The position numbers and the translations under genes are program-made. From Heterotrichella gracilis (taxonomy: Eukaryota; Sar; Xanthophyceae; Tribonematales; Xanthonemataceae): 64,000 nucleotides of DNA. Under the pieces are notes generated by a model. That model saw only the letters and a list, made by a program, of their open reading frames with translations. It had not been told where the DNA came from and did not search any database. Below are positions 241 to 61,900 of the stretch, in pieces; the first letter of the stretch is position 1; each line of letters starts with the position of its first letter. The stretch spans positions 1 to 64,000 of the forward strand of contig JAULBX010021964.1 in the NCBI GenBank assembly GCA_032358255.1, given 5' to 3'.

Positions 241-3200
241 ATGGACCAGTTTGCATCACTGGCGGCCTCCCCGGGGCACCCCGGGGGGGGCGAAACGCAC
301 GAGGAGGTGGAGGGGGTGTTCAGGGTGTATGCGCAGCTGCAGCAGGAACCCACCAACACGCATTTGCTGACCAAGGTGGCGTGTTATGAGGCGAAACACG
401 GGAATGACACGCAGGCGCGCCAGCTGTTCCACCGGGCATCGGTCATCGAGTTCCAGAAGGCGGAGCGGCTGCGGGTGAGGCCTGGAAACCCTTGTGGAAA
501 CCCTGAAGGAGACCCAGTAGACACCCTGGACAGAAAAGCAAAACAATGCTTTGCACGGCAGCTGTTCGAGCAGGTGTCAAGGATTGCACTACGTGGAATC
601 CTTTTGAGCCGTCCACCCACCCACTTCACAAAAACACACACCTCCAACCCCCACCTGCTACCCACCCCCCACCCACCCTATCCCCCACGCAGGGCGGCCA
701 GTGGACCAACTTCACCCCAGAAACCCTCTCCGTGGTTTTCGGCAAGCTACCACCCTCCCCCTGGGAAAGCACCACTGGGGCTACGGAAGCCGAACCCCAG
801 CAGTCTGAATCCACATCCAACTCCACTGGGGACGGCGGCGCCAGCAGTGGGGATACGGCAACCACAGCAGGGGATGCGGAGCAAGCCACCACCACCAGCA
901 CCAGCACCAACATCAGCACCAGCAACTCCAGTGGGGATGGGGGGCACTTGGGTGGCGGGGAGGAAACGCCACCTGGCGAATCGGCAGGTGCCACCGGAGG
1001 GGATGCGGGACTTGAGCCGGGGACCTTTAGGCGGGACCCTAGCCAAAACCCTACTGAGGCGCCACAGCCATCACCAGAGCCCACCGCAGCAGCAGAACCC
1101 CTGGAATCCCCTGGGATCGAACCTGAAACTTCAGGGACAGAACGCACGGCATCGGGCATCGAACCCGGGACCTCTGGGATCGAGCCTGGGACCCCCGGGA
1201 TCGAGCCGGGGACCTCCGATCGCTTGAATGTGGCTGTTTTCACTGCATGGGCTCGTTTTGAGGAGAGCCATGGGCTGCTTGATAAGGCTGAAGAGCTGTA
1301 CAACACTGCGCTGCAGCTGGACGAAACCAACAACGTGGCGCTGCTGGTGAGAGCTGGGTTAACCCTAACTCTAAACCCTAAAGCCTCGCCTGTGCCCTCC
1401 ACCCCCCCGCCATGCTCGTACCCTAACACCCACACGAAAACCCTTGTGTAGGGCCTTGCCAAGCTCAGCCACACCACCGGGCGCCCCCACAAGTCCATGG
1501 CCCTCCTGTGGCCAACCCTGCACTAAAAGCCCTAAGAAAACCCTAACAGCTTCGTGAAAACCCTTGCGTAGGGCCTTGCCAAGCTCAGCCACACCACCGG
1601 GCGCCCCCACAAGTCCATGGCCCTCCTGCGGGCAAGCCTTCGCGCCAACCCACGCCACGTGCAGTCGTGGGCGGCCCTGGCGCAGCTGCAGTCTGCCATG
1701 GGTGCGCCCCACAAGGCGCGCAGGACGTATGAGGAGGGGGAGAAAGTGTGTGCGGCGCATGCGCCGCTGTACACCGCGTGGGCGCACCTGGAGGTGGGTA
1801 GGAGGTTGATTTGGTCTCCAAGGTGGATGCGCTTGGAGGTAGAGCTGGGTTTTGGGGTTTGGGTGGGGTTAAGGGTTGAGGGGTTTTGTGCGCGTTGTTT
1901 GGCGGCGGGGGTAGGGCTTTTGGGTAGAATGAATGAGGAGGGGGAGAAAGTGTGTGCTGCGCACGCGCCGCTTTACACCGCCTGGGCGCACCTGGAGGTA
2001 GTAGGACTTATGTTGTGCTTTTTGCTAGGTGTGGTACATCAGTGCACTGCACGCGCTGATACACCACCTGGGTGCACTTGGAGGCAGGGTTCAGGAGGGT
2101 TTCTTCTAGCCGGGGAACTACCATACCTCTTCACCATGCATCCACGCTCATTTGACACCCCACACCCACCAGCACCCACCGCCCGCAGGCCAAGTGCCGC
2201 AACATCCACCGGGCCCGCACCCTCTACCAGTCCGCGCTCTCCACCTCCCCCACCCACCTCCCCGCCATGCTGGGCCTGGCTCAGCTTGAGGCCAGGGGGG
2301 GTAATCGAGCCGAGGCGCTGAAGCGGTACCAGCAGGCGTTGGAGATTGATGGTGGCAACGTGTTTGTCATGCATTCGCTGGCGCAGCTGTATTTGAAGGA
2401 GAACGATACGGACCAGGCGGGGGTGTGGGTGTCAAAGGTGCGTGGGGGCATGGATAGGTTGTCGGGCTGAAAACCCCAGCAAAACCCTAGGAAAGCCCTA
2501 CACAGAGATGCGATAATATGCCACCAGAACTCGACATTGTGCAATGGGTTCTTGCATCTTCGGCAAGGGCTTACAAAGACTTTGCGAGCCATTAGCCATG
2601 AAACGTCAATCGCACACCCTGCCTGCAGGTCCTGGCCATTGACTCTCACAGCGGCTATACCTTAACCCTCACCCTAATCATTAAACCCCAAACCCGGGAC
2701 CCTAAAACCCAGCCTTCTGCAGGTCCTTGCCATCGACCCCCACAACGGCTACGCCCTACACACCCTGGGTCAGCTGTACGAGCGCCAGGGGTGCACCTCC
2801 GATGCGCAGCGATGCTACTCCTGGGGGGTGGCCTGCAGGGACAAGCGCGGCAGCCTGCTGAATTATGAAGGTTTGGCGCTGCTGCACGCTTTCTGGAGGG
2901 ACAGCCCAACGGTGAGTGGCATATGAAACCCTGCGTAAATCCCTAGCAAAACCTTAGCAAAACCCTAGGCAAATTCGTGTGCAAAACCGTTGCGGAAACC
3001 CTGGTGAAACCCTAGGCGCGATGGTCTTTTTGGGGGGCGGCCAGCTCCACTATGAGGGGTTGGCGCTGCTGCACGCATTCTGGAGAACCGCACTGATGTT
3101 ATGTGTGTGGTATGGTGAGTTTGGGATTTTGAGATGTGGTTGTTGTGCAGGTGCGCGCCACGTTTGCTGCTGGTGCCGCTCGCTGGCCCACCACCACCTC

Positions 3201-4788
3201 GCGCTACCTCAGGGAGTGGGCAATGTTCGAGAAGAGGGAAGGGGCCTTGCAGGTGAGACCCTAAACCCTTAACCATGTACCCTAAACCCTAAACTACAGG
3301 CCCTACACCCCAAACCAACATCCGCTACCTGAGTGAGTGGTTGATGTTTGAGGAGAGGGAGGGGGCGCTGCAGGTGAGATGCGCTCGGGGAAAGGACAGA
3401 GTGTGCATGACCTACAGGTGCCTTCTAAAAACAACAATTGTTTATTTCACTGAGTTGAAGGATTGCAATTCTTCTCGTGTAACTGCATCCATGTCCTTGT
3501 TGTTCCAACGCAAGCGCTGCAAAAGTGTCTGTATAGCAATGTCAATCCCGGTTATTTGTGTGCAATCCCCAGGCCGCGGCTACGCTGTTCGAGCAGGCCG
3601 CCGCACTCGACCCCTCCGACCAGCGCACCTGGTTCCACGCGGGCTTGCTGGAGCGCAGGCGCAAGCGCTACCCCGCCGCGCGCGCCATGCTGAAAAAGGC
3701 GGCCTCGCTGAGCCCCCGCAACCCGCACGTGTGGCAGGCGTGGGCGGTGATGGAGCGGGAGGCGGGGCTGGTGCACGAGGCGCGGAGCCTGTTCAAGCAG
3801 GGCGTGGCGCACAACCCCAGGTGAGGGATCTGGGGCTTTCCTTCGGTGGGTTTGGGGTGGGTCAAAACTAGATTTGGTGTGTTTTTGGTTGTTAGTTGTG
3901 GCGGGTTTGGGCTGTGATGGAGCGGGAGGCGGGGCTGGCGCACGAGGCCAGGACCCCTGTTCAAGCAGGGCGTGGCGCACAACCCTAGGTGAGGGTTGGG
4001 GGCTCTTTATCAGTGGCTTTGAGGGGAAAATGAGTGTGTTGGTTGGGTCATGTTGTGGCCGTGGCGTACAACCCCAGGTGAGGGTTCTGGGGCTTTCTTC
4101 GTGTGGGTTTCTGGTAGGAATGGTGTTTTTTTGGGGGTATTTTGGCTGTTTTTTGTGGTGGGTTTGGGCGGTGATGGAGCGGGAGGCAGGGCTGGTGCTT
4201 GAGGCGTGCAGCCTGTTCAAGCAGGGCGTGGCGCACAACCCTAGGTAAGGGTTTGGGTCTGCGGACAAGAATGTACAATAAGAGCTGTATGATTTGCGGT
4301 GGGGTTGGGATTGAAGAGCTTGTCCAAGCACGGCGTGGCTCACATCCCTAAGTTAGGGTGTTGTTGCCCTGCTTTGCATGCCCAATCCAGAACCATACTC
4401 GTGGATATCATCATACCCATTCATCCATGCCATCCCCCCTAACACATCCCCCTGCCCAAATACGCCCCGCTGTACATGGAATGGGCCCTGAAACCTAAAC
4501 CACAACCCTGAAACCCTAAACACATCCCCCCTGCCCAGGTACGCCCCGCTCTACATGGAGTGGGCGCTTTTCGAGGCGGCCGCGGGGGATGGCCGATTCG
4601 CTCGGAAACTGTTCAAAACCGGGGCCGCGCTGGATGACCCCCACTACCCCCTCATTGAGGCCTGGAGGAGGTTTGAGGAGGGGTTGGGGGAGGATGGGGA
4701 GGTGGAGGCTGTGCTGGCTGTGGAAAAGGGGCTGGGGGCCAGGGGAGGGGGCAGGGGTGGTGGTGGTGGCGGTGGTGGTGGGTGGTGA
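241..4788 (+). CDS. HAT/TPR helical-repeat protein, possibly an MBB1/HCF107-type plastid RNA factor
   Basis: Eight exons join in frame: 241-474, 693-1346, 1572-1793, 2189-2437, 2723-2911, 3151-3252, 3573-3820 and 4539-4788, about 715 residues. From exon 3 onward the protein is a run of TPR/HAT helix pairs, for example AWARFEESHGLLDKAEELY, NPHVWQAWAVMEREAGL and YAPLYMEWALFEAA. The W/A-rich spacing with 'W..W..ME' is typical of HAT repeats, which scaffold RNA-processing proteins. Exon 2 encodes a long Ser/Thr/Gly/Glu-rich linker with repeated GIEPGTS units. The C-terminus is a Gly run from a GGT microsatellite and may be a mis-called intron instead. In green algae, HAT/TPR proteins of this size include MBB1, a psbB mRNA maturation factor, but this assignment is inference from repeat type and length. 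The start ATG at 241 is the first in the frame. Introns hold at least nine exon echoes. Confidence 0.72.
1441..1508 (+). repeat. Upstream echo of HAT-gene exon 3
   Basis: This is a nearly perfect copy, offset by exactly 120 bp, of the acceptor and first ~57 bases of exon 3 (1561-1628). It retains its own TAG acceptor. Identity breaks off abruptly after the CTCCTG. Confidence 0.9.
1926..2085 (+). repeat. Downstream echoes of HAT-gene exon 3
   Basis: Positions 1931-1996 repeat the exon 3 3' end (1733-1796) including its GAG|GT donor, with a few substitutions. A much weaker third copy lies at about 2040-2085 (TGCACTTGGAGG). Confidence 0.85.
2619..2665 (+). repeat. Upstream echo of HAT-gene exon 5
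   Basis: It repeats the CTGCAG acceptor and the first codons of exon 5 (V-L-A-I-D), about 105 bases before the real acceptor at 2721-2722. Confidence 0.8.
3046..3376 (+). repeat. Echoes of HAT-gene exons 5 and 6
   Basis: Positions 3046-3095 repeat the end of exon 5 (tyrosine-glutamate-glycine-leucine stretch) without a donor. Positions 3316-3376 repeat the last ~58 bases of exon 6 with an intact CAG|GTGAGA donor and are preceded by CCCTAAA filler. Confidence 0.85.
3893..4352 (+). repeat. Four-step echo ladder of HAT-gene exon 7
   Basis: Four copies of the exon 7 3' end follow the true donor at 3821: 3893-3990, 4058-4084, 4153-4250 and 4306-4352. The first three keep AG|GTRAGG donors, and the first and third retain about 90 bases of exon sequence. 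A short echo of the following exon 8 acceptor side lies at 4449-4485. Confidence 0.92.
4754..4788 (+). repeat. GGT microsatellite at the 3' end of the HAT gene
   Basis: A run of GGT/GGC trinucleotides encodes the terminal glycines in the predicted frame. Confidence 0.8.
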
Positions 4789-6237: not shown

Positions 6238-8946
6238 ATGCTGCCGCAACAGGGGGTGCCATCAGGGCAGGCCCCCCAGAGACAGGCAACCAACTGGAGG
6301 ACTTGGCACAGCGAGCAGGACAACCCCACCAGGAAGAACCTTATCAACCAGATGTAAGATGGAGCACTGTAGACTTGCATCCTGTCCGTTTTCGGTGCCC
6401 ATTGACCGTCTGCTGGACGCTGAACGCTGTGTTTCCCTGTGCTCAGCTTCCTTCTGTTCCACCAAAAGAAGCCCAATGTGGCGCAAGAGTGGCAAGACCA
6501 GCTGCCGGACTTCATAAAAAGGCTCGAAGAGGCTTTGTACAAGACTGCCAAGTCTCGGGTGCGGCTCCTGCTTGTTTTCATGGCTATAACCCTCGCCTTT
6601 TTTGTCTGCACCCAGTGCTGATTGGTGTTGTTACTGGGTACACAGGACGAGTATGGAGACGCAGGAACGCTTGAGCTGCGGCTTCAGAAGGTCGCTAGGC
6701 AAATGGTGTCTCGACACACCTCTCAGCAGCAACCCCGGCCTGCTGGGGGGACCACCATCGCGTGCCTCCCCGCTGCCGTGCTACAGAACGTCCTAGCACG
6801 GCTCCAGCTGCAAGAGCAAGTCCAGGCACAGTTGGCCTGCAAGGCTTGGAGGGAGGCCCTGGATGAGACCTCCCTGGTGTGGGAGAGGGTCTGGTTTGAA
6901 AACACCCACTGGGCCTATGAAGATCCCAAGTGGGCTGGTTTTGCAGCCTGGATGGGCCCCCGCCTGGCTTCCGCTAGCCGTGTGGGGTTGGGCATTCCTT
7001 ACAATCTGGGGGAGGAACGGCGGTTGCTGCGGAGTGCGTGGTTCCTGGCCTGCCTCAACCCGCTGCGGGTGGAGATGCTGCACCTGTACGGTGACCTTCG
7101 GGTGATGGACGTCCCTGCGATCCAGTCCTTGAGCAAGTTCACTGGACTCACCACCCTGGAGGTAGGCTGAGGTTGAGGGTTCACATGTTCATCCCTGAGG
7201 TTAACTCAACACATTCATGATCCCCAGTACAGTGGCCTGATTAGCAGCCAGCCTTGCACATGAATGAGGCGTCCATTTCCTTGGTCCTGGCTTTGCTTCC
7301 ACTCTTTCCATATGGAAATCAAGAAAGGAAAAGAGGGGGAATATGCTGCTTTTGTCTCTCTTCTCAGCATCCTTAAACATGTTCCTGCCCATTCATGAAG
7401 GTCGACATGACCGAAGGAGCCAATCTGCGCTTCCTGGCAGCGCTCACCAAGCTGACCAGCCTGCGTCTGACCCTCGATACCAACGACAAGGGGGGTGCTT
7501 TCCCGCTGCCCCTCAACCTCCGGGAGCTGGAGCTGCGCCTGGATGTGGAGGACCCAGATGCTGAGCCGGTGGCCATGGCGGCGTCTATGCCCGCCTCTAT
7601 GCTTCCGGAAATCAACCGACTCACATCCCTCACGCACCTGGTGCTGACTGTGCATAGGGATAACCTTCGGCTGGACCTCTCGGGGTGCGCTTCCCTGCAG
7701 ACATTGACTATCAGGTGAGCCCTATAGGGTTTAGGGTTTAGGTATGATTTATTTGCTCCTGTCAACCCAATCTCCAGTAGCCATCATCAATGGCACTAGC
7801 TCCCCGGAATTAATCTGGCTGCATTGCTAAAATCGCATGTAACTAACTGATCAATTCCGTCCCATTATCCCAGTTGTGCAGGGCATGTGGTGCTGCCACG
7901 TGGCGGGCTGCCACCCTCCCTGCAGCGCCTCATGATCAGGGAAGGCTTGAGCATCACAACGGAGGGTGGCAGCCTACCAGCATCACTACACACGCTGCGT
8001 GGCGAAGATGCCGCCTACTCTGGGCCATGGCCATGGAACTGCGGGGCGACACAGCTGCAGGTAGGGGTTAGGGATTAGGGTTTTGAATTTAGCCCCATGG
8101 CGTGGAACTGCGGGGCAACACAGCTGCAGGTAATTGTTTAGGGTTCAGGCCATAGCTGCAGTAAGTGTCATGTGGCTATGCTTTGATGGTGGGTGTGCCT
8201 GTGGTGATCATGCATGTTCATCTGGGCAAGCAACCCTGTTTGTTTTAAAGTGCTGTTTTGTTGTGTGCCGCAAACCTTGTATGGGGGCGTTGTACATCTC
8301 TCATAATTTCACGACCGTATCTGGCAATTTTGTTTTAGAATTCCCATGCTTTTGGTGCAATACGCATGCTCTGAAAGCATAAATCCTAAACCCTAAAGGG
8401 TTCTCGAACCCATGACTTACCATGCTCGTTGGATGGAGAAGGAGTGTACCGGATCAGTATACCATACCTCAAGATTCCTACTCGCACCAAGTCCTTTTGC
8501 TGCGATTACAGGTGCTGAGTATGGTTCTGTCCAGGAAGGAGCAGTATGGGCAGCTGCTGGCGGGCCTGGTGCATTTGCCCCAACTGGAGCACCTCTGCGT
8601 GAACTTTGCGGAACCCCAAAGACATGATCAGCACCCGAGCCTGGTGTCATTAGAGCTGCCCTGGCTGCCCAGCCTGCGTGAGTTTGCCTGGCGATCAAAG
8701 CAACCCATGGCGCTGCGCCTGCCCAGCTCCCCTGATGCTTGGCTGGATTTGGAGTCTACTCAGCGAGGAGGGGGGGGGAGTGGGTACTATGGGGGTGGCG
8801 GTGCGTGGTACCAGTGGAGGCGGGGGCCTGGGGGCGGCTTCGGCCTTGCTGCTCGGGATGGGTATGGGGACCTCAACTTTGGGTTGCCGATGTCGATAAA
8901 AGAGTGGTTTTTGCCCAGCATGCATGACAACTTTTTGCGCTCCTGA
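6238..8946 (+). CDS. KIX-domain / F-box / leucine-rich-repeat fusion protein
   Basis: Six exons join in frame: 6238-6353, 6447-6558, 6646-7161, 7401-7714, 7874-8060 and 8512-8946, about 559 residues. Residues ~19-100 look like a KIX domain of the Mediator MED15 type: NWRTW, a basic helix, QEWQDQLPDFIKRLEEALY, then DEY and TLELRLQKVARQM. Exon 3 reads without interruption from the third KIX helix into an F-box (residues ~115-160; LPAAVLQNVLARL then ACKAWREAL and a Trp), followed by leucine-rich segments such as LTKLTSLRL and INRLTSLTHLVL. F-box proteins recruit substrates to SCF ubiquitin ligases; KIX domains bind activation domains of transcription factors. A protein with both could target transcription regulators for ubiquitination, which is inference. 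The paralogue downstream lacks the KIX part. Introns are phase-conserved between the two copies. Confidence 0.8.
8094..8136 (+). repeat. Downstream echo of first F-box gene exon 5
   Basis: It repeats the exon end (CATGG..TGGAACTGCGGGGC..ACACAGCTGCAG) with an intact CAG|GTAATT donor, 34 bases after the real donor and separated from it by a TTAGGG-like filler. Confidence 0.9.
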
Positions 8947-10357
8947 GGGCACTGACAGCCACAGGGATGTGTCAACGTGCTATGTGGAAGTGACTGGTAA
9001 TAGCCCAAGCTGATGTTGTAGTTAAATACACACTTTGCAGAAATGGCTTCTGAAGCATAGTCTGTTGCTGTGCCATCCTGTGCAAACTTGTTTCTCAATA
9101 TATTATATTGTTTCTCAGTATATACCTCCCTGGTCTTCAGTAATCACAACACAAATCTAAGTAACCTAGCAGGAGACGAAAAAGAAGAAGAAAGAAAAAA
9201 AAGAAGTTGTGCAAGTCCTCTGGCCTTCCTAGCAGGACTCCTGGACATATGCAGCCTGACATCCAAGAAATAAGAAAGAAACAAAACTCGGCCCCCACAA
9301 AACAGGGTCCCAGGTGCACATATGTATGGCAACGCTTTGTATGGTGGGCCCTGTGGTGTACATTAAGGGGCTACAGTACCCCTACGTGAATTTTGCCAAC
9401 TGCTTTGGCGTATGTCAATGGGGAAGGGGGGCCAACACCTCAGCCCTTGGCTATTGAGGGGTTTATAATTAAGCTAGGGTTTAGGGTTGACCATATCGCG
9501 CTCGAGATAAGATAGCGTTTGCTTGCCAGTTGCCGCAAACTTTGCGCAATATACCGTAGCACTGAGAACGCAGACGTATATGCTACAACGAAACTCGCGT
9601 TGTTGTTGTTACCCTGCAGGCAAGATACCATCGAGGCACGGGCCCTTGAAACTCGTGCCCACTTGCATGCATCTGGCGTGCATCGGACAGGCTCGTAACT
9701 GGTAACGCAGTTAAGGCGCAACCGCCCTACGGTCATAAATTTGGCAGACACCCGTCGCGGTAAGGTAAAAATTGGTATTTCAGGGCTTGGTGTCGTGTAC
9801 TGTGCGTGCACAAGCAGTTGCATGCTCAAGGCCCCAGTGTGCATGCATGCAACAGCCTGTAGTGGCATACAGACAGTCAGAGTTTAGCAAACAGTCTTTG
9901 CAATACAAGCTTACAACGTTTGCATTCCATTCCTGTTCTACAACGTGTGTACCGTCCCGTACGCGTGATGGTTGCGTCAAGCTGTGGGTGGGCGACCCCA
10001 TCGAGTAGGATTGCTGCCTAGTGTTCCCAGCATCACCAACTGGATGCACTGCAGTAGCTGTTCCTAGCAAGCACCATATTTTCACAAGACTTCGTGCTAA
10101 CATCCAGGAATTTCCAGTCAATCCCGTACAATGTAAAGCTTGAGTGGACCACCATGTACAGTGCAGAGCTTGAAAGAGTGACCTAACACCATTTTGCTGA
10201 CGTTCTGTGCGCCAAGGTCCGCGCGCCTTCTACCCAACACCAGCTCTCATTTCACACCGGTTTGGGTTTTGAACCGGCTTTTCGGTTGCACCACCTTTGC
10301 AGTCATACGCCAATTACTGATGTCAATGCCCGCCCTCCTGCTCCCAGGCACTACCCA
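8947..10357. other. Spacer between the two F-box paralogues
   Basis: No gene was seen. Positions 9660-9800 match 5728-5890, marking the upstream limit of the tandem duplication. A partial copy of the GAAA dispersed repeat is at 9268-9300. Confidence 0.5.
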
Positions 10358-12954
10358 ATGGCGACCATTGCATCCCTCCCCGCTGGCATGCTTCAGAATA
10401 TCCTGGCCAGGCTCGAGATGAAAGAGCAGCTCCAAGCACGACTGGTGTGCAAGGCCTGGAGGGAGGCCCTGGATGCGTCTTCCACCGTGTGGGAGAGGCT
10501 GTGGATAGGCGAGGATGAAGGCCTTTGGCGACAAGATGACCGCGCCAAGTGGGTCGGGTATGCAGGCTGGATGGGGCCCCGCCTGGCGACAGCTCGCTGC
10601 GTGGCAGTGGCTATTCCTGGTGTCCACGACATTTGGCAAGAGCAGGAGCGTTTGCAGCGGAAGGAGTGGCTTCACAAAGTGGTGGTGTGGTTCCTGTCTT
10701 GCCTCAACCCCCTGCGGCTGGAGATGCTGCAGCTGGAGGGGAGCTTGGGGAGGGTGGGGTCCCAGCTGCTGCACAAGTTCACTGGCCTCACCGCCCTGGA
10801 GGTACGCTAGGGATTTAGGGTTTAGGGTCTTAGGGTTAAGGGTATATGCTGTAGGCTTTAGAGCTCACTGCCCTGAGGATGGTTTTGGGTACCAGCTGCT
10901 GCACAAGTTCACTGGCCTCACCGCCCTGGAGGTACACTAAGCTGTAGGGTTTAGGCACAGGTTTTCAAAACCCTACAGGGTTCCAGCAAGTTACTGGCCC
11001 CACCGCCTTGAGGTAGGCTAGAGTTTGGATTCATTCCAGGAGTAAAGCCAGGTTACTAGCACGATTGGCACCCACACGAGCAACCACAAATTGCTGCCTG
11101 GCATATCATGCTGCTTCTGCCGTTTCCAATCTGACGGTACTATTGTGCTGCTTTGGACGTACACCATAAGCACGCACCATAAACCCTCACGTCGTGCTCT
11201 CTGCTCAACCCTGCGGGTTATCCAGGAGAAAAGTCCTTGGGCGTCAAGCCTGGTGGTGTGCCCAAACCCTACTTGTGCACCTAAACCCTAACCCTGTGTG
11301 TCTCCTGCTCCCCCCTGCAGGTGTCCAGCACCAAGGGCGTCAACTGGAGCTTCCTGGCGACGCTCACCAAGCTGACCAGCCTGCGCCTGACCCTCGACAC
11401 CACCGAGCAGGGGGCTGCAATCCCGCTGCCCCTCAGCCTCCGTGAGCTGAAGCTCGAGACTCGGGTGCTGCGTGTGCCTGAGTCACCCGAGCCACCCAAC
11501 CTGGTGGCTGCGATGGTATCGGCGATCAACCGACTCACTGCCCTCACTCACCTGGTGCTGTACCTACGAGAAAGGGACCTTCGGCTGGACCTCTCGGGGT
11601 GCATTGCCCTGCAGACGATCATGATCTGGTGTGCCCTTTAGGGTTTAGGGTTTAGGCGCTGTGGACGATAATGGCCTGGTGAGCCCTTGATGTTGTAACC
11701 TCACAGTAGTCGACTGGCTGCATTGCAGGGTCGCATGAGATGTAGTTCATGCATTATAAATAACTGATCAACCCCGTCCCGCAGTTGTCGCGTTACCTCA
11801 TTCACCTCTTGTGACCCCGTTTCCCAGCTGATAAAATGGCTGCAACAAAGCAGCTGGAGCACCTTGCTTGAAATAAAAAGAACATATATAAGAAAACAAA
11901 ATAAACAAGAAAATCAATAACTGACCAACTCCATCCCATCCCCCAGTCGTGCCGGGCATGTGGTGCTGCCACGTGGCGGGCTGCCACCTTCCCTGCAGCG
12001 CCTCATGGTCTCCGAAGGTGAACGTGGCAGCATCACAACGGAAGGGGGGTGCCTGCCAGCGTCGCTCCACACATTTTGCGTCAGACGTGCGAATCACTTT
12101 GGGCCTTGGCCGTGGAAATGCGGGGCGCCACAGCTGCAGGTAGAGCTTAGGGTTTAGGGTAGCATTTAGGGTTAGGGATTAGGGTACTGTCGCAAATGGT
12201 GGCCGTGGAGCGGCGGGGAGCCACAGCTGCAGGGAATGCTTAGGATTTAGGGTTTTGGGTTTGCAAGCATACAAAGCCAGACCAGCAATCAGCCTTGCAC
12301 AAGCTTGCGCCAGCCAGTCCTTTTCTGACATTGCTTGTACCATTTTTGGATGTTTCTCACCGGCAGACCCTTAGTGACGAGAGCTGTTTCATTTGATTTT
12401 AATAACTACCTGAATTAATATTGTTTAATTCGTTGTTCAATCACACCTTCCCGTTACAGGTGCTGAGCATTGCTCTGGGCAGCAGGGAGCAGTATGGTCA
12501 GCTGATGGCAGGCCTGGCGCACTTGCCCCAACTGGAGCGCCTCTGCGTGTATTTTGCCCAGCCCCTTGGACCCGATCCAACCCACGAAAGTGAGGAGGAA
12601 AGGTACAGGATGGACGCACTGCCAAGGCACATCTACTTTTCTGACCTGATACCCCTGGAGTTGCCCTGGCTGCCTGGCCTGCGTGAGTTCAGCTGGCAAT
12701 CATTGCACCCCATGGCACTGCGCCTGCCCAGTGGCCCGGATGCATGGCTGGATTTCGAGGCCCTGCAGCCGGGAGTGGGGGATGGGTACTATGTGGGTGA
12801 TGGGGGTACGTGGTACCAGTGGAGGCGGCGCCCGGGTGGGGGGTTTGGGCTGGCTGTGCGGGACGGGCGCCAGTATAGGGACCAAGCATTTGGGATGGCG
12901 GTTTCGATGACTTGGTTTTTGCCCAGCATGCATGAGAACTTTATGCGGTCCTGA
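10358..12954 (+). CDS. F-box / leucine-rich-repeat protein, tandem paralogue without KIX
   Basis: Four exons join in frame: 10358-10801, 11321-11628, 11947-12139 and 12460-12954, about 479 residues. The F-box (residues ~5-50) contains LPAGMLQNILARLEMKEQL and VCKAWREAL. It is followed by leucine-rich segments (LTKLTSLRLTLDT, LPLSLRELKL, INRLTALTHLVL) and a conserved C-terminal block, WYQWRRRPGGGFGLAVRDG, ending FLPSMHENFMRS. Every intron sits at the same codon and phase as in the upstream copy, so the two genes arose by tandem duplication. I searched upstream for the KIX motifs and did not find them; the ATG at 10358 is the first in frame near the F-box. Role: probable substrate receptor of an SCF ubiquitin ligase (family knowledge); the target is unknown. 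Confidence 0.82.
10861..11020 (+). repeat. Echoes of second F-box gene exon 1
   Basis: Positions 10890-10931 copy the exon end almost exactly (CAGCTGCTGCACAAGTTCAC..CTGGAG|GTACAC). Positions 10985-11015 hold a third, more decayed copy ending in GAG|GTAGGC, and 10861-10880 a fragment. TTTAGGG-type motifs lie between them. Confidence 0.92.
11655..11800 (+). repeat. Echoes around second F-box gene intron 2
   Basis: Positions 11657-11686 repeat the exon 2 end with a CTG|GTGAGC donor, preceded by TTTAGGG filler. Positions 11760-11790 repeat the acceptor side of exon 3 (ACTGATCAACCCCGTCCCGCAG). Confidence 0.8.
12150..12235 (+). repeat. Telomere-like filler and echo of second F-box gene exon 3
   Basis: TTAGGG-type motifs at 12145-12185 are followed by a decayed copy of the exon end (GCCACAGCTGCAG) at 12195-12231, where the donor has decayed to GG. 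Confidence 0.85.
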
Positions 12955-13073: not shown

Positions 13074-13116
13074 TTTTAGGGTTTTAGGGTTTTAGGGTTT
13101 TACGGTTTTAGGGTTT
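13074..13116 (+). repeat. Interstitial (TTTTAGGG)5 array
   Basis: Five tandem TTTTAGGG units, one changed to TTTTACGG. This octamer is the Chlamydomonas-type telomere unit, whereas most intronic motifs in this window are the heptamer TTTAGGG. Confidence 0.95.
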
Positions 13117-22098: not shown

Positions 22099-22109
22099 TC
22101 CGTCTCCGG

Positions 22110-37032: not shown

Positions 37033-45147
<8,115 letters not shown>

Positions 45148-46830: not shown

Positions 46831-46833
46831 AGA

Positions 46834-48829: not shown

Positions 48830-48869
48830 AAATCCGCTCCACAAGCATCTTGAAGCGCACACTACTCCA

Positions 48870-49500: not shown

Positions 49501-49823
49501 TGAAGGAGAGGCAGGCAGGCGCACGGACATGTATTAGCTGCACACACGTATCACTGACCAGCATGGCGGGCGGTGGAAGCAAGTGACTCACAACCAAGCT
49601 AATAAATAAATAAATTAATAATAAAAATAAATTAATAAATAACTATGCAGCCTGTCCTGAACAAGCGCGTTGGGTAAGCAAAAGGATCTAGCAGAGGGAT
49701 GGACAATGCCCCTCCTGTCCACTATATCCTCTCCCAAGCTAAGACTGCAGCGTGCATTGCGATCAGTACCTTCTTGGAAGCCAGCTTGTCAGCCACACCA
49801 CCCTGGCTGGCTGCCCGCAGGAC

Positions 49824-49998
49824 ATCAATGACCCCGTCCTTGCCGATGCCCGCCAGGATCTGGTGCGGACAGAAGACCTCCCTTTACTACAGAAAAAGCC
49901 ATTATGGCTCCTCCCGCCGTGGTGGGAGGTCGTCCTCACCACACCAGATCCTGGCGGACATTAACGAGGACGGAGTCATGAGCAAGGACGGGGTCAAG
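49824..49998. repeat. Fold-back with imperfect ~60-75-bp arms
   Basis: Left arm 49824-49882 and right arm 49924-49998 share CGCCAGGATCTGGTG and ACCCCGTCCTTG as inverse complements. The arms look like inverted copies of one coding-like segment (H-Q-I-L-A in both). Confidence 0.8.
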
Positions 49999-50847
49999 TT
50001 GGCAACCATTAGGAACGCGGCTTGGTAGGATATGCGCAGCACACCTGTTTGGGTGAGGTGAGGACAGCACTCATGGTTCCTGTGGGAAAATCTCCTGCCT
50101 TGTCAAAACAGTGTACTTTTTGTAAGAGTGGACGGCAATGGAGTGCAACACAGGGCGGTTTGTAAAGCAAGCTACATACATGCACAGTATATTGCAGACT
50201 TATTTAGCCTGTTGTTGCAGCTTGTGTTAGTCCAACAACGGCCAGATGGTGCATCACAGCTTGATTATATTACTGACACATGCTCATACACTAGCTGGTA
50301 TCTCCACAGGGACTGGAGCTATGCTTCACAATGCAAATAGACCTTGAATCCTAAACCCTGAATCCTAAACCTCAGCTGATATCTCCACAAAGACTGGAGT
50401 TGAGTTTCATGGCTAGTGGTCTTGAGCTACTCCCCCGTCTCTCCTGGTAATCCGTATATCCACATGACCACATGTCGTCCAATCGAACACAACCAACACA
50501 CCATGTTGCAACGCACCATTGTCAGGGCGGAGGGGATGCTGTCCACCGGCAGGGACTTCAAAACCAACTTCTTCTTCAGCAGCAGGGCAATCTGCGGGAG
50601 GGGGTCGTGCCGCCACAGGCATTGATCCCACCCACTGATTAATGTATAGGGCGACAGCTTGTGTCCAGCATCGCTGTGGGTCCAAATGGCTGAATGTCCA
50701 AGCAAACACAGGGCCCTGAACCACAGTGATAGCCAGGCTCAAGTCGTTGCCCCAAACATCTGCAAGGCAGGGTATGCTGGGACTAACGCCTACGGCGGCA
50801 CAACCACCCTCCCTGCAGCATGCCCTACTGCTAAATCCGCCCCGGCC

Positions 50848-50980
50848 GGGGCCGACACCTTGTGACCAGCACTTGCTGTGGTTTAGGAGATGGAGGGACC
50901 CCATCGACGTCAACCATCGACAACGGTGTGGTCCTCCACTTCCTGAACCACAGCAAATGCTGGACACAAGGTGTCGCCCC
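50848..50980. repeat. Near-palindromic fold-back, ~62-bp arms, tiny centre
   Basis: GGCCGACACCTTGTGACCAG at the left pairs with the inverse complement of CTGGACACAAGGTGTCGCCC at the right. Arms run from about 50848-50909 and 50914-50980 with scattered mismatches. Confidence 0.9.
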
Positions 50981-51026
50981 ATGCATTTTATTTGTTATAT
51001 TTTATTCATTCATTTTATTTAATTAT

Positions 51027-51237
51027 TCGCCCCATACATCGTACAGGGCAACTCCTTCTCATTATTTTGTACTCCTCCTAGACATTTAAGGCCACGGCCC
51101 CATAAAATCAATTGATTTATTTTATCTTCATTTTTATTTTATTCTCAAGTATTTCAATTTTTACTCGCCCCATACATTTTCCAGGGCAGCCCCTTCTGTT
51201 CCTTTGTACGCCTCTTAGGACTTTAAGGTCACGCTGC
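51027..51237 (+). repeat. Tandem AT-rich duplication
   Basis: The block CGCCCCATACAT..CAGGGCA..CCTTCT..TTTAAGG at 51027-51095 recurs at 51168-51235; unit about 141 bases. Confidence 0.88.
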
Positions 51238-51271
51238 TCTCGGCCTCCAGCTCATGGAGCGGATTCCCTGC

Positions 51272-51442
51272 AGAAGCTAGCAGCTGCGCCTCAGCCAGGA
51301 CCCATTCCTTGCAGATCTCGAGAGCCCTGGCGAGGGGTGGGATGGTGGTGAACATTGTTCAACCCACGGCAGACCCAGCTCTCGCCAAGGACTACGGAGA
51401 TGCAAGGGTTGGGGCCTGGCTGAGGCGCTGCTACTAGCTTCC
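51272..51442. repeat. 171-bp fold-back related to the 48775 hairpin
   Basis: Left arm starting GAAGCTAGCAGCTGCGCCTC and right arm ending GCTGCTACTAGCTTC pair with mismatches over ~65 bases. The centre (GGTGAACATTGTTCAACC) is itself a palindrome, so almost the whole segment folds on itself. Confidence 0.9.
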
Positions 51443-51501
51443 GAAGTATGGCCAGTGGCTATACTGCCCATTCTGAGGTCACCAGGATGCAGCAGTAGAA
51501 A

Positions 51502-51682
51502 CTGCCAACAAAAGCTGCGGGGCAGCAAGCTATTAATGGGTGGGCGGATGCATGCAAAGGGGCGTGCAAGGAGTTCTGGCGATGGAGGGGCAGACTCTGT
51601 GCACGCTGAACTTCTTGCTCGCCACGCTTCTCGCACCGACCAACCCAGCAATAGCTTGCTGCCCTGCAGCTTTGTTGGCAGC
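51502..51682. repeat. Fold-back with ~75-bp arms
   Basis: CTGCCAACAAAAGCTGCGGG..GCAGCAAGCTATT at the left pairs with AATAGCTTGCTGCCCTGCAG..TTTGTTGGCAG at the right; the outer ~45 bases pair well and the inner part is weaker. Confidence 0.88.
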
Positions 51683-52839
51683 CAATCCCTTTGCGCAGGT
51701 GTGGAGCTGTGCATGGTGCAGGCAGGGATCCCACCTGAGGAGGCAAGAAGGGGACGGTGTGTGCTGCCTGCCGGGTGTGTGCTGGCCATAGTAGTTCTGC
51801 AAGTTGCTTCCCCTTCACACTGCTGAGCTCAGTCCCAGCGCTGTGGTGACTGCAGGGGAACTGCTGCCATTGTGCGCCTGCGTATGTGGATAACAGGGAG
51901 AACCATACTCGCCATCAGAACCACAATCAAGATGACTTTGACAGGGCCAATCATCAAGGCACTGAATTAGCGTCCTGTGATGTGGTACATCCTTTCCGAG
52001 TTGCTGGAGCAAGGGCAGCATCTAGGCTGCCCTGGCAAACCAGGAACTTGGAAAGCTCAACGGGTAATGGATGTAGCACACAGCAAGACGCTAAATCAGC
52101 CGCCTAAATTGCTGACACAAGGAATAAGCTTGGGTCCCAGTACATGCGAATCTGCAAAGCAGGTCCTGGAAGCCTGTGCCTGCTGGGCTGCATTGGGCCC
52201 ATGTTCCCACTACGATGCAAGGAGCTACCCTTTGGCTGAGCGCAGACCACATGGCATGGCATTCTGCCCTGCCAATGCCCGCTTCCAGCCCAAGTGCACA
52301 ATGGCCATTTTCCTGGGCCTTGGCACCGCCATGCTTGTGCGCAGCCCACCCTCGCACCTGACCCCCTGCCCACTCACCTTCGATGGGGGCACCATCGCCC
52401 AATCCCCGCTCACTGTGTGGCAAGAGGGGTACACAGGGCAGACTCCTTCCTGATCCCATGCAGCCGGTCTCAATGAGCAGTTGCGAAGCGTGCCACCAAC
52501 AGGAAATAAATAAAGTTAATTAATAGTAATAAATAGAGTTATTATTCAATATAAAGAAAGTGAAATAAGAAGTATGCCACAGATACCATTGCCAGGCTGG
52601 ACAGGTGCTTCCATTACTGATGAGGTGGAGGCACGGGCCTGTGTCAAGGAACGCAAGGTGGTGGGGGTGCAGTACATCCTGAAGGACGGCACAACGGTGC
52701 GCTCCAACACCTTTTTGAAAACTGAAAGCGTGCGCTCAGTGGTCACCGTAATGTTAATCTTACGGACGCTCCCTAATTTTCCAAAGGTGTTGGCTTGCAT
52801 GTAGTCCCGCCCTGTAGGACGTATTCCACCCACCCCACC
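51683..52839. other. Unassigned stretch
   Basis: No gene is supported. The reverse complement of 48845-48915 resembles 52645-52720 (CGCAAGGTG..TACATC.TGAAGG..GTGCGCTCCA), indicating an inverted duplication. AT-rich TAATAAATA runs occur at 52500-52560. Confidence 0.45.
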
Positions 52840-53445
52840 TTGTGCCTTTTTGGACAGACGCCTGCCTCAACCCCCCATCAGTGCAGCACCTGCCTATCTT
52901 GGCTCACTACCCTCACTCGCCCACAGTGGGCAGGATATCCTCCTCCGCCATGAATTTAGGGCTTAGACTTTAGGGTTTAGGGTTTCGGTTGGGCGCGGGC
53001 TGTTTGCTGATACGCTCCTTGAGCAGTTACGCAGGGTGACTTGCTGGGGCGTACCTTGCGGTACCAATTCTAAAACCCTAAAGCCTAAACAGGCTGGTAC
53101 AAAGGAGGTCAGACTCCAGCATGCACATCCAGAGGAAAGAAAGGAAAAACAAGGACATGTGTATTTGTCCAGATGTGTTGTTAAAAAGAGAGAGGCATGG
53201 GCCGATTTACGCGCCCAATATGCGGGGCGCAATCACCCTGGTCACCTACCCTGTTTGAACCTCTGACAGCGCCTGCCCTGCATGGGCCCCGCCTTGTGCC
53301 GCTGCTTCCATGGCACCTGCCGCATGCTGCCCCGCCTGCACGCCCACACATGCAAGGGTTGGGCTCACATGCTGTGTGCTGATGAGCTGGTGCCACATGT
53401 GGTTCAAACAGGTGCTGGTTCAGGTTCGTGGATGTGAGGGCAAGG
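52840..53445 (+). repeat. ~600-bp direct repeat, copy 2
   Basis: Partner of 48870-49500, about 4 kb downstream in the same orientation, diverged to roughly 80-85 % by eye. Confidence 0.88.
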
Positions 53446-55488: not shown

Positions 55489-57432
55489 CTATGGCGCAGG
55501 CAGGGGGTTCTGGTAGCTGCCTCTCTCACGCAGGAAGTCATCTGCGTCTGGGTTGTAACTCTCCCGGGGGCTGCGGCTGCCCAGCACTTCGGGCCCGGTG
55601 CCTATCTTGGTAGCCCCATAAAACCGCAGCACATCCTGCGTGAAACATTGTTGGGGACGTGACTTTCAATTGGGACACTTAAGGGTCTGAGTACAAGGCA
55701 CCAGCATGCACTGCCAGGGAACCCTCTCAAGCTGAGATTTCTCTGAGGAACTTCAGGCGGTGATTTCAGGATGCGCTGAGACTGCATACCATGCATGTGC
55801 TAGTGTCCACAAATAATAACAACACAGAAAAGGCTTAAAGCTGAGCACTTGCGCAAAAGGAGTTGTATATTGTAACACTGTCCTAATGCGTGATGCATAC
55901 CAATGGGTATTTTAAATTATGTATTTGTGTACATCACAATTGCTAGAAGGTAATCTGGTTGTGCAGCATGGAATGTGGGGATACAATGTTGACTAGACGT
56001 GGGATGAATGGAGTTATTCCCAATACAACAAAGCTTGCATTGCCATTTGTGCACTGAAATTTATAGGATCTTATCATATGGTTATGGTCTTGCGCCGCAC
56101 TGCTACAACTACTGGCCAGTAGTTGTAGCAGTTGAAACATTATTTCTAGACAACTGAATATTTCTTTTCCATTAATGGGAAGGCAAGGCGAACACTACAG
56201 TGCGTGAAAGGAATATCACGATGCGTGAAAGGAATATCACTGATAAATGAAATGAAGATATATTTACGTAGTAATGCATGGAAGGAAAGGCTTCCCCGCT
56301 CACCTCTGGGTAGATCCCCTTCTCCTCTGTGGCACCATACTTCCCCTTGGCCTGGCAGTAGGACAGGGGGGTCCACCCCTTGGGTGTCTCCTCATCCAAA
56401 TCAGCGCCATACTCTACAAGCAGCTTGATCATCTCAACACCGCCATCGATTGCCCAGAAGATCACCTGCAAACACATGGGTCATCACGGGTTATGTCACC
56501 AGGGTTGGAGCATAGACGATGGGTGGGCATTTAGAATGTAGAGTGGGCCTGTTCAGGAGGTGTACCAATATCAAATTCAGGATGAACAGTATAACGGCGT
56601 TCAAGGGAAAGGATAATAGAAGACGTCAACACTGTTTCATATCCTCTGTATTCTTTGCTATTTCACATTTGCTAGTAAAATTGTGAGACACGCAGCAATC
56701 CGATTTGCAGCTGTTCTTCAAGATATTGGGCAGGCTGTATAATTGCAATAAGATAAGCATTTACAACAGGGGGGAAATAATTGTGAAAGCTACGCAGCAT
56801 GTTGGTGGTCAAGCATGGGTCAGGCGCGTTGCCTCATGAAGGAGAGGAGTTGGATAAACAGGAGGGCACCCTGCCACCCAACAGACCACAGATTCACCGT
56901 AGATTTGGCCACCTACCAAGCCACAATTCTAACATTCTCTGTGCCACCCAGACCACAATTCCAACACAACCTGCGCCACCTACCCGGTCACAGTTCACAT
57001 TCATGAAGTTATGCTGCAAAGTTATCTCATTTATTTACTTGAATTTAGTTCCTTGCCACCTACCAGGTCGCAGTTCCCGTTCATGAAGTTGGGGTCCGCC
57101 CCGGCGCGCAGCAGTGCCCTGGCGCACTCCATCCTGGAGCGGTGGCAGGCAACCATGAGCACCGTGTAGCCCTCGGGGCACTTGTAGGCCCGCCCAAACA
57201 CAAAATTAACATCCGCCCCCTCCTCAATCTTCTTGTACACCAGCTTGATGTCGTTCTTGACCACCGCATTGTACAGCTCCTCGGTTTCGCGGCTGGCCTT
57301 GACCACGTCCTCGCCAAAGGCGCTGGGGTCGAAGTCGGGGTGGTGGGAGCCCTTGCCGTCGTCCCACTGGGCTGCGTAGGCCTCCTCGACCTCCTTTTGG
57401 CGCTTCTTCAGGATCTCCTCCATGTGCGCCAT
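55489..57432 (-). CDS. Ankyrin-repeat protein
   Basis: Three minus-strand exons join in frame: 57432-57064, 56465-56304 and 55635-55489, giving 225 residues. The N-terminus is a charged helix (MAHMEEILKKRQKEVEEAY). Two to three ankyrin repeats follow: LYNAVVKNDIKLVYKKIEEG with ADVNF, then GYTVLMVACHRSRMECARAL with LLRAGADPNF, then EMIKLLVEYGADLDEETPKG with WTPLSYC. The C-terminus is LRFYGATKIGTGPEVLG then a polar tail ending NPLPAP. Ankyrin repeats bind other proteins; no catalytic domain is attached, so it is probably an adaptor. I cannot name a closer family. The intron after exon 1 has at least three echoes of the exon 1 end. Confidence 0.88.
56915..57015 (-). repeat. Three echoes of ankyrin-gene exon 1
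   Basis: On the plus strand, GCCACCTACC.GGTC.CAGTTC..TTCATGAAGTT at 56976-57013 matches the exon end at 57055-57090; two shorter copies (GCCACCTACCAAGCCACAATTC at 56918-56939, split as CCACCTACCAAGCC plus ACAATTC; and CCACCCAGACCACAATTCC) precede it. Confidence 0.88.
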
Positions 57433-58939: not shown

Positions 58940-61900
58940 ATGGCATTGAAGTCGCTGACAGCCTCGGTGAGTGGCCAACCTATCGTATACCAAGGCAGCT
59001 ATGGGTACAACTATGTTATCAATCGTGCGATGTTGTTGTGTTTGATGCTATATGTATGGCTGTGCGTTCCTTGCCCAACGAAAACGGTCAGGTGGGTGGC
59101 TGCCCATCAACTGATGTGCGCCAGACAACCCATCGCGACCCATCAAGCGATGCATCACGCACCACAACCTGTACTTGACTCCTCGATGCCGTCATGAGCT
59201 CCCCACAACCCGTTTCGGTCGGTTTTGGCAGTCGAATGTAGCTGTACCGAACCTAGCCACGATGCAAAGGAACTGGTGGCTGCTGTGTGTGAACTTCTCC
59301 TCTACCCACCAGTAGTGTCAAGCCGTGTCCGAACGTCACTTGCAAAGTGCTGCAAGATTTTGTTGTATCCAGGACTAGCATTACGTGACTTGCCCAAGGT
59401 TGTGCTCTAAGCTGCTAGTCTGTCAGTCACCATTCCCACCTTTGAAGCCTTGTGAGTGTTGAGGAAGTTATGTCTGACCCACTCACACCCTTACAGAGGG
59501 CTGGTGTATAGAGTGCTGGCGTGCCTCAAGCTGCACGGCATGTGCAAACTTGATGGGCAGCTAGCTGAGTTTCTACCTAGGACTATCACTAGGTCCTCTG
59601 TGCCAACAATGGCGTTTGCAACAACGCTGGCAGTGCTTAATGCCCCTTGCTTGTGGTTTTGCAGGCTGCTGTGGCAGCGCGCGTGGCAGGCCTGCCCCGT
59701 CAGGTATGTGTAACAGCAGCGCATGCATCGCGTGCGTGGCGTTTATCTGGGACTGGCAGCAACTACCTACATGCCTAGGCTGCACGATGCTAGTCCAGCA
59801 CGTCATGTAGTTGTTGCTTGCGTCACAGTGGGCGTCACCACTACAACTCGTAGACTAGCTACCTACGACCCCTCTCGTACACAACCATGATGGACAAGTA
59901 ACGGTTCCCCAACCTCCCATACATCACAACACACTTTGATAACCGCCTTGCACCCCACCCACCCGTCACAACCCTCCATCCACCCGCCGCGCACCACACC
60001 ACCCACCCACCCGTCCACCCACGTTGTGCCCCCCACCCCACCCGCAGGTGGCCCGCGTTGCTAGCGCCCCCCGCTGCGCAGCCCCCTTCAGCTCCCTGGC
60101 CCTTCGCCAGGGATCCTTCTGCGCGCCAGCCAAGCTCACCCAGCGGACGCAGCAGGTGCGCAGTCATCTTGTGGCACAAATTAGGGAATTTTAATGCAGG
60201 GTGTGGGTTGTGGAATGGCCAAAAGAATAGGAGAAGAAGAAATGGTTGCTGGCCGCCCTGACCCATGCTGTGATAAGTGCCCAGGAAACGATTTTTTTTA
60301 TTCATTATTAATTTAAAAACATGCTTCCGCAAGGCTGACAGCCTTTCTGCCTGGACATCAAATGCAATGGACTAGAAAAAAGTCAGTTAATTTTTTTTTG
60401 GAGAAAAGCAAAGTGGCTAACTTTGTTTATATCTACCCCCTATGCTCCAGAGGTCCAGCCGCAGCTCCACCAGCCGCAGCGTGACCAGCGCAACAGCCGG
60501 ACCCGTCACCAAGAAGGTGTTTTTCGACATTGAGATCGGTGGCGAGCCCGCTGGGCGCGTGGTCATGGGCCTGTACGCCGATGACGTGCCAAAGACTGCT
60601 GAGAACTTCAGGTGGGGCGGTGACTTGGTTTGGATGATGGGAGCATGGGGTGTTGCCTAGGGTTAGCTAGGGGTTTGGTCATGGGGACCCGGTGGTGACC
60701 AAGAAGGTGACTTTTGCATTGGGATTGGTGGCGCGTGGTGATGGGCCTGTGCGCCGATGACGTGCCAAAGACAGCCGGGAACTCTAGGTGGGGGGCTTGA
60801 TAGGTTTTTAAGTGGGGCTTGGGTAACAGGACCATGGGGCGTTTTGCCTAAAGTCTGCAAGGATATTGGTCATGAGGATTAGATGGTGACCAAAAAGGTA
60901 AATCTTGACAATGGGATCGGGGGCATGAGCGCAGTGTGCCTGGTCATAGGCCTGTACGCAGATGACCCTGCCTATAGCAGAGAAAGTCAGGCGGGCAGAG
61001 ATTACAACAGGGCTTATAAGCTGTTCTGGCCCAAACATTTGGTTGATGGGGGCATGGCCTGTGGGTTGTACCCTAAACAGGGTTTTCCCGCTCCCTCAGG
61101 GCCCTGTGCACTGGCGACAAGGGCTTTGGCTTCAAGGGCTCGTCCTTCCACCGCGTGATCAAGGACTTCATGATCCAGGGTGAGTACATTATTTACAGGT
61201 GTAATAGGAAAACACATGCGTGCCATCACGAATACTAGAATGTCATATTGATGGTGCAGGAGCAACTTTTTTAAAGTAGTGCATGCGTGCCCTTTTACCG
61301 CGGCATCAGTTAATGCTTGCTAGTAATAAACCCATGTTGTTGCCACCTGAGATTCTGAAGCCGTCCCCTTGATATGCTGCCAGGTGGCGACTTCACAGCA
61401 GGCAACGGCACCGGTGGCAAGAGCATCTACGGACGCAACTTCCCTGACGAGAACTTCAAGTGTAAGTTCATCATGGCACCTTTTATTCATGTCACTGACG
61501 ATGGCACCCTGCAATCATGTCAATGAATCATGTGACATCCACCTTTCTGGCAATACTGGCGCTGCGGGTGCTGGTGGATCATGTCACATTTTTTTTTTTT
61601 TTTATGTCAGTGCACTAACCTGATCCATTTCCGACGCATTGCGCTCCTCTCCCACACACCCGTCCCCCCTCTCCACAGACAAGCACACCATCCCTGGGAT
61701 ACTGTCCATGGCCAACGCGGGACCCAACACCAACGGATCACAGTAAGATAAACCCCCTGCATAGAACCCTGAAATACTACAGGACCCTTTAAAGTACTTT
61801 TAACGCGTGCATGTCATCTATGGGGTACTGTCCAAAACCACGCAGGGCCCATACACCAATTGATCACAGCAACCTGTACATCAATGAAGGCCAGCGATTA

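Follow-up and report, generated by a model that had tools for sequence, protein, structure and literature searches.

Partial copies of exon edges, commonly separated from their exons by telomere-like repeats, in the introns of a 64-kb stretch of Heterotrichella gracilis DNA

Local copies of exons within one gene are known from tandem exon duplication and mutually exclusive exons. The CST complex is a telomere complex as well. Together with Pol alpha-primase, it is described as filling in complementary 3' overhangs, which yields small tandem duplications (PMC8355091). Telomeric repeats at former breaks are accompanied by a direct duplication at 6 of 130 loci in rodents, 4 of 25 in primates and 3 of 66 in horse; the work on horse attributes such duplications to staggered breaks (PMC2246262, PMC7215372). 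Intron gain by tandem duplication of AGGT-type sequence has been reviewed (PMC3443670), and a tandem duplication across an intron-exon boundary was reported in potato (PMC4974935). Here, partial copies of exon edges (echoes) were analyzed in a stretch of 64,000 bases from the xanthophyte Heterotrichella gracilis (contig JAULBX010021964.1, positions 1 to 64,000), hereafter the window, where they lie in the introns adjacent to their own exons and often beyond a telomere-like repeat. No account of telomere-like repeats between exon-edge duplications was found among the titles and abstract openings of the top-ranked, mostly open literature hits, so that absence from the literature is unproven.

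Gene modelling resulted in 11 genes (numbered G1 to G11) with 60 introns amounting to 23,350 bp and an exonic total of 12,705 bp. Exon borders were placed manually using splice anchors in the DNA sequence alone, and models were retained if the translation was open. When adjacent exons were aligned to their own introns (Smith-Waterman score of at least 40), matches were obtained in 28 of 120 pairs and 25 of the 60 introns. At the same score, the reverse-complement control of these pairs gave 0/120, and non-adjacent exons of the same gene gave 0/776 pairs against introns. An earlier note on this DNA had claimed partial exon copies in the adjacent introns of 10 of the 11 genes on both strands; the claim was confirmed at this score (10/11 genes, and 11/11 at a score of at least 34), with the minus-strand genes G5, G7, G8 and G10 included. 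A 30-mer donor probe (exon 3' end plus donor, at least 22/30 matching) was found in the own intron in 21/60 cases versus 3/3152 other-gene pairs and, after known copies were masked, still in 7/60 versus 0/3152. The corresponding acceptor-side probe was found in 8/60 own introns versus 1/3152 other-gene pairs. The comparison of own introns with mismatched pairs that the note had proposed, run within the window, thus gave an excess by alignment and by probe, and the 30-base probes also pick up older copies. Exon-edge copies were scarcely common to different genes (the three donor-probe pairs above; G2 and G3 are paralogs). Donor-side copies outnumbered acceptor-side copies 21:7 at a score of at least 40 (two-sided binomial p = 0.013).

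Comparison of the window with itself gave 54 direct matches at offsets below 1 kb, one at 1–3 kb and 13 at 3–10 kb (gene or segment paralogs), together with 15 inverted matches; among the matches listed (offset < 5 kb), 12 of 13 inverted ones fall in 46–53 kb. No dispersed family beyond 10 kb, of the kind that introners or transposon-derived introns would form, appeared in this self-comparison, which did not include an all-against-all alignment of intron bodies. In 120-bp tiles, direct local repeats scoring at least 40 were found in 31/199 exon, 53/200 mixed, 133/418 intron and 24/614 intergenic tiles, and inverted local repeats at the same score in 0, 0, 0 and 47 tiles, respectively. The duplication of exon edges is recurrent, local and graded, as the note had said, and far above chance. 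Divergence of the exon part of the copies ranges from 0 to 25%, so the events are spread in time.

The set of copies comprised 39 distinct alignment rows after one duplicate was removed. Further tests used the nearest copy per exon edge only, which gave 29 cases (22 donor-side and 7 acceptor-side, in 26 introns); copies found only by the 30-mer probe and two last-exon copies stand outside these cases. All copies are direct and cover 35–188 columns (39 rows). Among the 29 cases, the offset from exon to nearest copy is 70–373 bp, and the spacer of 0–341 bp measures 0–11 bp in three cases and 20–341 bp in the remainder. Median homology of these nearest copies is 51 exon bases plus 11 intron bases past the junction; exon sequence accounts for at most 0.63 of the offset. 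The splice junction is spanned in 32/39 rows (24 donor-side and 8 acceptor-side). GT is retained in 21/24 junction-spanning donor-side copies versus AG in 4/8 acceptor-side copies (Fisher p = 0.047), a difference that is consistent, on small numbers, with duplicated acceptors being tolerated less than duplicated donors. Median intron length is 446 bp with an echo (n = 26) versus 294 bp without (n = 34), longer introns giving more room for a copy, and echo copies occupy 2,896 of the 23,350 intron bases.

Telomere-like repeats between exon and copy, missed in the earlier note, are the best clue to mechanism. The term denotes only resemblance to TTTAGGG/CCCTAAA. Exact heptamers of this family occur between exon and copy in 19/29 cases versus 5/29 for an equal stretch beyond the copy (discordant cases 15:1, p = 0.0005). 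The p value stays at 0.0005–0.0034 when one gene at a time is left out, and at least one such case is present in 9/11 genes. Cluster density is 9.8 per kb between exon and copy; it falls to 1.9 per kb over the equal stretch on the far side of the copy, and echo-free introns likewise have 1.9 per kb. The letter order is specific, with 27 clusters of the telomeric order between copies and at most 4 for any of 19 other orders of the same composition. For donor-side cases, 16/22 carry the motif, versus a mean of 5.8 for same-length donor-proximal stretches of 35 introns without a donor-side echo (never reached in 3,000 draws), so that the excess between copies goes beyond donor proximity alone. 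The few acceptor-side cases alone gave 3/7 inside and 1/7 outside. The hexamer CCCTAA, counted on both strands, has a density of 2.74/kb in introns, 1.07/kb outside genes and 0 in exons, and of 3.9/kb in 30 introns with an echo versus 1.1/kb in 30 without (p = 0.0006). A junction-window test gave p = 0.001–0.025 over six window and motif choices that were picked after junction inspection. The words between GGG runs were TTTA (16), TA (7), TTA (7) and TTTTA (3), which makes TTTAGGG the commonest telomere-like type. Between genes, 5.4 units of TTTTAGGG lie at 13074–13116, whereas most intron tracts are TTTAGGG-like; TTTTAGGG is given as the Chlamydomonas telomere type (PMC6549138).

The two motif orientations are nearly equal in number (9 and 7 in donor-side cases, 34 and 30 in all introns), which argues against a role at the RNA level. 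Runs of G in introns are known as splicing enhancers, and this explanation of the motif was set aside on the same ground. Direct repeats flank 32/72 intron clusters, versus 12.7% of 778 control positions; several clusters are common to one exon-copy pair, so the clusters are not independent.

The explanation that we consider probable, with real room for doubt, is that the echoes are scars of staggered double-strand-break repair with telomeric repeats and duplicated break edges, filtered by selection. A staggered break at or near an exon-intron junction would place an identical stretch on both broken ends. Fill-in and joining of these ends would follow, and telomeric repeats as well as other filler would commonly be placed at the join; the repeats could come from telomerase activity or from a telomeric DNA template. 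The product would consist of an exon edge, a telomere-like repeat with filler, and a second exon edge. A duplicated unit that was wholly exonic, or that held an entire exon including its two splice sites, would damage the protein and be lost, and in a wholly non-coding unit both halves would drift and fade sooner. A unit across one splice junction would leave one edge intact under selection and the other intronic and decaying, so that the pair would stay recognizable. Repeated events would lengthen the introns. Because a one-junction duplication would be tolerated and remain visible for long, the pattern of copies can follow from selection, which could account both for the donors kept in downstream copies and for the acceptors kept in upstream ones.

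Filler was evaluated by simulating tandem duplication without it. In the simulation, homology extended 37 bp into the intron at the median and the exon share exceeded 0.65 in 34%, versus 11 bp and at most 0.63 observed; since the filler-free simulation misses both properties, inserted filler fits better, and tandem duplication without filler was rejected for the set as a whole, although single arrays do fit it. This fit, the precedents for telomeric repeats with duplications and the known fill-in of overhangs together underlie the staggered-break reading. As in the mammalian short interstitial telomeric sequences (ITS), short internal repeats, here of telomere-like sequence, are present (72 intron and 28 intergenic clusters), some of them flanked by direct duplications and introns included (PMC2246262, PMC7215372). 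The arrangement of one short-ITS mode, a repeat between duplicated edges, is found here in introns at the 19/29 versus 5/29 given above, and between genes in 2/28 clusters, which is no excess. Unlike the mammalian loci, where duplication affects a small share, the window has flanking repeats at 32 of its 72 intron clusters and shows recurrence at exon edges with several copies per intron. Compared with duplications by CST and Pol alpha-primase, the copies are likewise direct, adjacent and short stretches at presumed break ends (0/120 inverted and 0/776 non-adjacent matches); the difference is that most copies here are set apart by a spacer that is often telomere-like, only 3/29 lying at 0–11 bp.

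On this reading, the window holds an unusually dense variant of a mode that is rare in mammals, and not an exon-specific system. The earlier idea of a system specific to exon edges was not upheld: copies also occur past stop codons, and between genes a direct repeat was found on both sides of a telomere-like tract (50293–50399). Copying specific to exons or coupled to splicing was rejected as unnecessary for the same reasons (copies follow 2/11 last exons, and one repeat-flanked telomere-like tract is intergenic). Last exons have a copy in the 3' flank in 2/11 genes, at 21934–21974 on the minus strand for G5 (score 57, with a heptamer at 21998–22004 between) and at 28651–28704 on the plus strand for G6 (score 33, the exon end being copied); first exons have a copy in the 5' flank in 0/11. 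The intergenic example is a 26-bp direct repeat (50293–50318 and 50374–50399) on either side of a telomere-like tract at 50350–50371. Intron gain of the AGGT type was not supported, the copies being located within pre-existing introns. Such gain shares with the present case a tandem duplication of exon or boundary sequence inside genes (PMC3443670, PMC4974935); here, by contrast, the copy lies within an existing intron whose ends are elsewhere, and no new intron is formed between copies.

Several results weigh against the staggered-break reading. No telomere-like heptamer is present between exon and copy in 10/29 cases, and echo introns carry the motif at 3.6/kb even outside the exon-copy pair, versus 1.9/kb in echo-free introns. 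Intergenic clusters have flanking repeats in only 2/28 cases (the G5 last-exon copy with its heptamer and the 26-bp repeat), with no excess over control (2.3% of 1107; p = 0.62). Homology passes the start of the telomere-like tract in 5/16 donor-side cases (a sixth by one base), and the tract there belongs to the duplicated unit. Certain arrays are simple tandems whose units nearly abut (spacers of 0, 5 and 11 bp in G4 intron 3, G9 intron 4 and G5 intron 1). Differences between exon and copy are more synonymous than under simulated neutral decay, less so after CpG removal, and the eight least diverged pairs differ more in the intron part (21/133) than in the exon part (14/375). In addition, the motif idea was formed and tested within one and the same window.

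Part of this evidence fits plain small tandem duplication by slippage, unequal exchange or paired-nick fill-in, followed by selection, with the telomere-like repeats as ordinary intron content or break-prone fragile sites that were not co-inserted. True tandem units do exist (81 bp repeated 4.3 times in G4 intron 3 and about 199 bp in G5 intron 1), the motif is already inside the duplicated unit in those 5/16 donor-side cases, and donor-proximal enrichment of the motif is seen in echo-free introns as well (4.4/kb in the first 60 bp versus 1.3/kb). The spacer, which could be tested in 26 cases (three of the 29 had too little), resembles post-copy sequence beyond the null in 8/26, so that part of the set may consist of decayed true tandems. 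We nevertheless regard this explanation as unlikely, if well worth keeping in view, given that filler-free simulation reproduces neither how little of the intron is included nor how much of the unit is exon, and that the motif lies between rather than beyond the copies in the 15:1 discordant cases.

The 18/26 spacers that do not clearly resemble post-copy sequence, and the shortness of many pieces (35–188 columns), would also suit templated filler, in which a break within an intron was repaired by polymerase theta or a synthesis-dependent route that copied the nearby exon edge into it. Repair of that kind should yield inverted copies too, and these were found in 0/120 pairs and 0/418 intron tiles at a score of at least 40; moreover, 32/39 rows cross a splice junction even though exon interiors offer more template. 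Templated filler is accordingly held to be improbable. An assembly artefact or haplotype mix-up has a practically negligible probability, because the copies differ by 4–28% with indels and varied offsets across 11 genes and have specific telomere-like tracts between them. Reverse-transcribed copies were rejected on the grounds that 32/39 rows cross the splice junction and carry intron sequence (no dedicated search for copies of exon-exon junctions was made). Self-similarity of protein repeats (TPR, ankyrin) was likewise rejected, because the copies lie in introns, match in the DNA itself and are found next to no exon but their own.

Decay is visible in the copied exon sequence, where 14/18 indels break the frame. 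Mismatches between exon and copy lean to the third codon position (0.084, 0.093 and 0.200 for the three positions), and a nonsynonymous to synonymous (N/S) ratio of 0.305 from codon-position counts first hinted at constraint. A simulation pointed the same way: as a ratio of counts, N/S is 1.01 for all pairs and 0.91 for one pair per exon edge versus simulated means of 1.5–2.0, and one in-frame stop is present versus simulated means of 3.8–7.3. With CpG sites excluded, the ratio of 0-fold to 4-fold mismatches is 0.42 (79/1088 vs 45/259), which lies below the approximately 0.55 that, by the author's own reckoning, a copy drifting beside a constrained exon would have; the constraint signal is therefore weakened but not wholly gone. 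Mild excess similarity of the exon part could stem from exon-to-copy gene conversion or from fast intron turnover. The stop count, the N/S ratios and the GT kept in 21/24 copies could also mean that copies are functional, serving as alternative ends of exons or as decoy donors under selection. This is very unlikely in view of the broken frames, the lack of any copy spanning a whole exon (0/39) and a CpG-free ratio that is below but near the drifting yardstick, and these same frame and length results leave the earlier suggestion of a reservoir of alternative exons unsupported. Duplicated alternative exons resemble the echoes in being exon-derived copies local to one gene, and differ in that the echoes are partial and decaying, with mostly frame-breaking indels. 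The description of the process as ongoing is unproven: the sole copy free of coding mismatch is one of 8 codons plus an indel, and no identical copy long enough to indicate a recent event was seen.

Pfam backs 10/11 of the predicted proteins. G1 is a TPR/HAT gene on the plus strand. Upstream copies in G1 were found in intron 2 (acceptor and start of exon 3, 1572–1793; copy at 1420–1519, 91% over 100 bp, with a telomere-like tract at 1538–1564 at the junction), in intron 4 (exon 5 start, 2623–2652, probe 25/30) and in intron 7 (exon 8 start, 4437–4489, with a telomere-like tract at 4494–4521 between). Its downstream copies are of the exon 3 end and donor in intron 3 (1933–2006, 92% over 75 columns), the exon 5 end in intron 5 (3036–3085, with telomere-like clusters ahead between 2926 and 3014), the exon 6 end and donor in intron 6 (3323–3379, with a tract at 3258–3294 ahead) and the exon 7 end and donor in intron 7 (first at 3897–4024, others at 4154–4260 and 4316–4358). 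A 21-bp tandem repeat of 3.1 copies, whose length preserves the frame, is also present in a G1 coding exon (1153–1218).

The plus-strand genes G2 and G3 (6238–12954) are tandem F-box paralogs; the first exon of G3 is unsettled. In G2 intron 5, a copy of the exon 5 end and donor lies at 8095–8132, with a telomere-like tract at 8075–8083 between. G3 has copies of an exon end and donor in intron 1 (10887–10955, tract at 10814–10837 between), of an exon end and donor in intron 2 (short, 11655–11684, probe 22/30) and of an exon end that has lost its donor in intron 3 (12200–12253, tract at 12147–12185 between). The same exon end is copied in the following intron of each paralog. The alignment pairs each of these echoes with its own exon at very few informative sites, which is suggestive only of independent origins. 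G4 (plus strand, 14387–17488), an IBR gene whose product has a CCCH zinc finger at the C terminus, carries its 81-bp units in intron 3 at 15801–16080, each consisting of the exon end, the donor region and a CCCTAAA-like tract. Its model includes a GC donor at 16342 in one intron, and exon 2 requires a donor immediately 5' of an in-frame stop.

The Ssu72 gene on the minus strand (G5) has copies of the exon end and donor in intron 5 (exon 5, 22656–22702, telomere-like tract at 22724–22744 between), intron 4 (exon 4, 23115–23144, probe 23/30), intron 3 (exon 3, 23520–23570, tract at 23613–23624 between) and intron 2 (exon 2, 23883–23978, tract at 23987–23996 between). Intron 2 also holds an upstream copy of the exon 3 start and acceptor (23763–23826), and intron 1 holds three copies of the exon 1 end at 24392–24903, partly as the units of about 199 bp. 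A decayed likeness to the last exon region of this gene lies about 4 kb off at 18053–18403, past the 3' copy. The archease gene on the plus strand (G6) has in intron 5 a copy of the exon 5 end and donor (28057–28130, its start abutted by a heptamer at 28049–28056) and an upstream copy of the exon 6 start with the AG lost (28246–28301, clusters at 28393–28399 and 28452–28459 between).

G7, whose model is an open frame only and which had no Pfam hit, has upstream copies of the exon 2 start in intron 1 (30190–30272 and 30337–30415, minus strand). In the chalcone-isomerase-like gene on the same strand (G8), the exon 4 end and donor are copied in intron 4 (33831–33887, with a second match at 33964–33993 and a heptamer at 33999–34005) and the exon 5 end in intron 5 (33324–33353, probe 23/30). 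The plus-strand FtsH-type AAA+M41 gene (G9), partial at its 5' end as modelled, has exon-end copies without a donor in intron 3 (38731–38765) and with the donor lost in intron 4 (39750–39895, others at 39956–39985 and 40020–40072). The exon end is copied together with the donor in intron 6 (40648–40683, tract at 40610–40622 between), intron 8 (41631–41698, 95.6% over 68 bp, another copy at 41807–41858) and intron 11 (43253–43354, heptamers at 43202–43208 and 43242–43250 between). Upstream copies are of the exon 8 start with AG in intron 7 (41244–41294) and of the exon 11 start with the AG lost in intron 10 (42796–42889). An intron of the same gene contains a 120-bp tandem pair of 97% identity (37762–38000), a young duplication within intron sequence only.

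The ankyrin gene on the minus strand (G10) has a copy of the exon 1 end and donor in intron 1 (56975–57010, score 35, extended 52). In the plus-strand cyclophilin gene with an N-terminal extension (G11), the exon 4 end and donor are copied in intron 4 (60695–60793, a second copy at 60886–60966, heptamer at 60658–60664 between) and the exon 7 end, donor lost, in intron 7 (61815–61872, heptamer at 61749–61755 between). Several long palindromes (foldback elements, 74–88% in self-comparison) occupy 46198–52903, for example at 46834–46962, 48769–48835, 49828–49979, 50849–50980, 51273–51441 and 51502–51681, together with two diverged non-coding copies (48863–49404 and 52802–53402). G+C content was 49–59% in 4-kb blocks. 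Observed/expected CpG was 0.52 in intergenic, 0.48 in intron and 0.64 in exon sequence, with TpG/CpA in excess over the whole window, which suggests cytosine methylation. Scans of the whole window for tRNA genes and Rfam families gave no hits.

Intron growth and the origin of short internal telomeric repeats are usually inferred from single loci, and here 29 exon edges with copies occur in one 64-kb stretch. One half of each pair is presumably held near the original by selection, so that a scar could be dated and its edges mapped. A broader proposal, possible though on balance doubtful, is that introns in this lineage consist in large part of accumulated break-repair scars, with a telomeric patch and a copy of the neighboring exon edge in each, and that repair with telomeric repeats is a main force in gene structure. 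If this is true, introns grow steadily and acquire decoy splice sites through a repair pathway, and each scar can be dated by its exon edge. If the pattern holds genome-wide, the organism would offer a natural setting in which to study break repair assisted by telomeric repeats, intron lengthening and splicing with duplicated splice sites.

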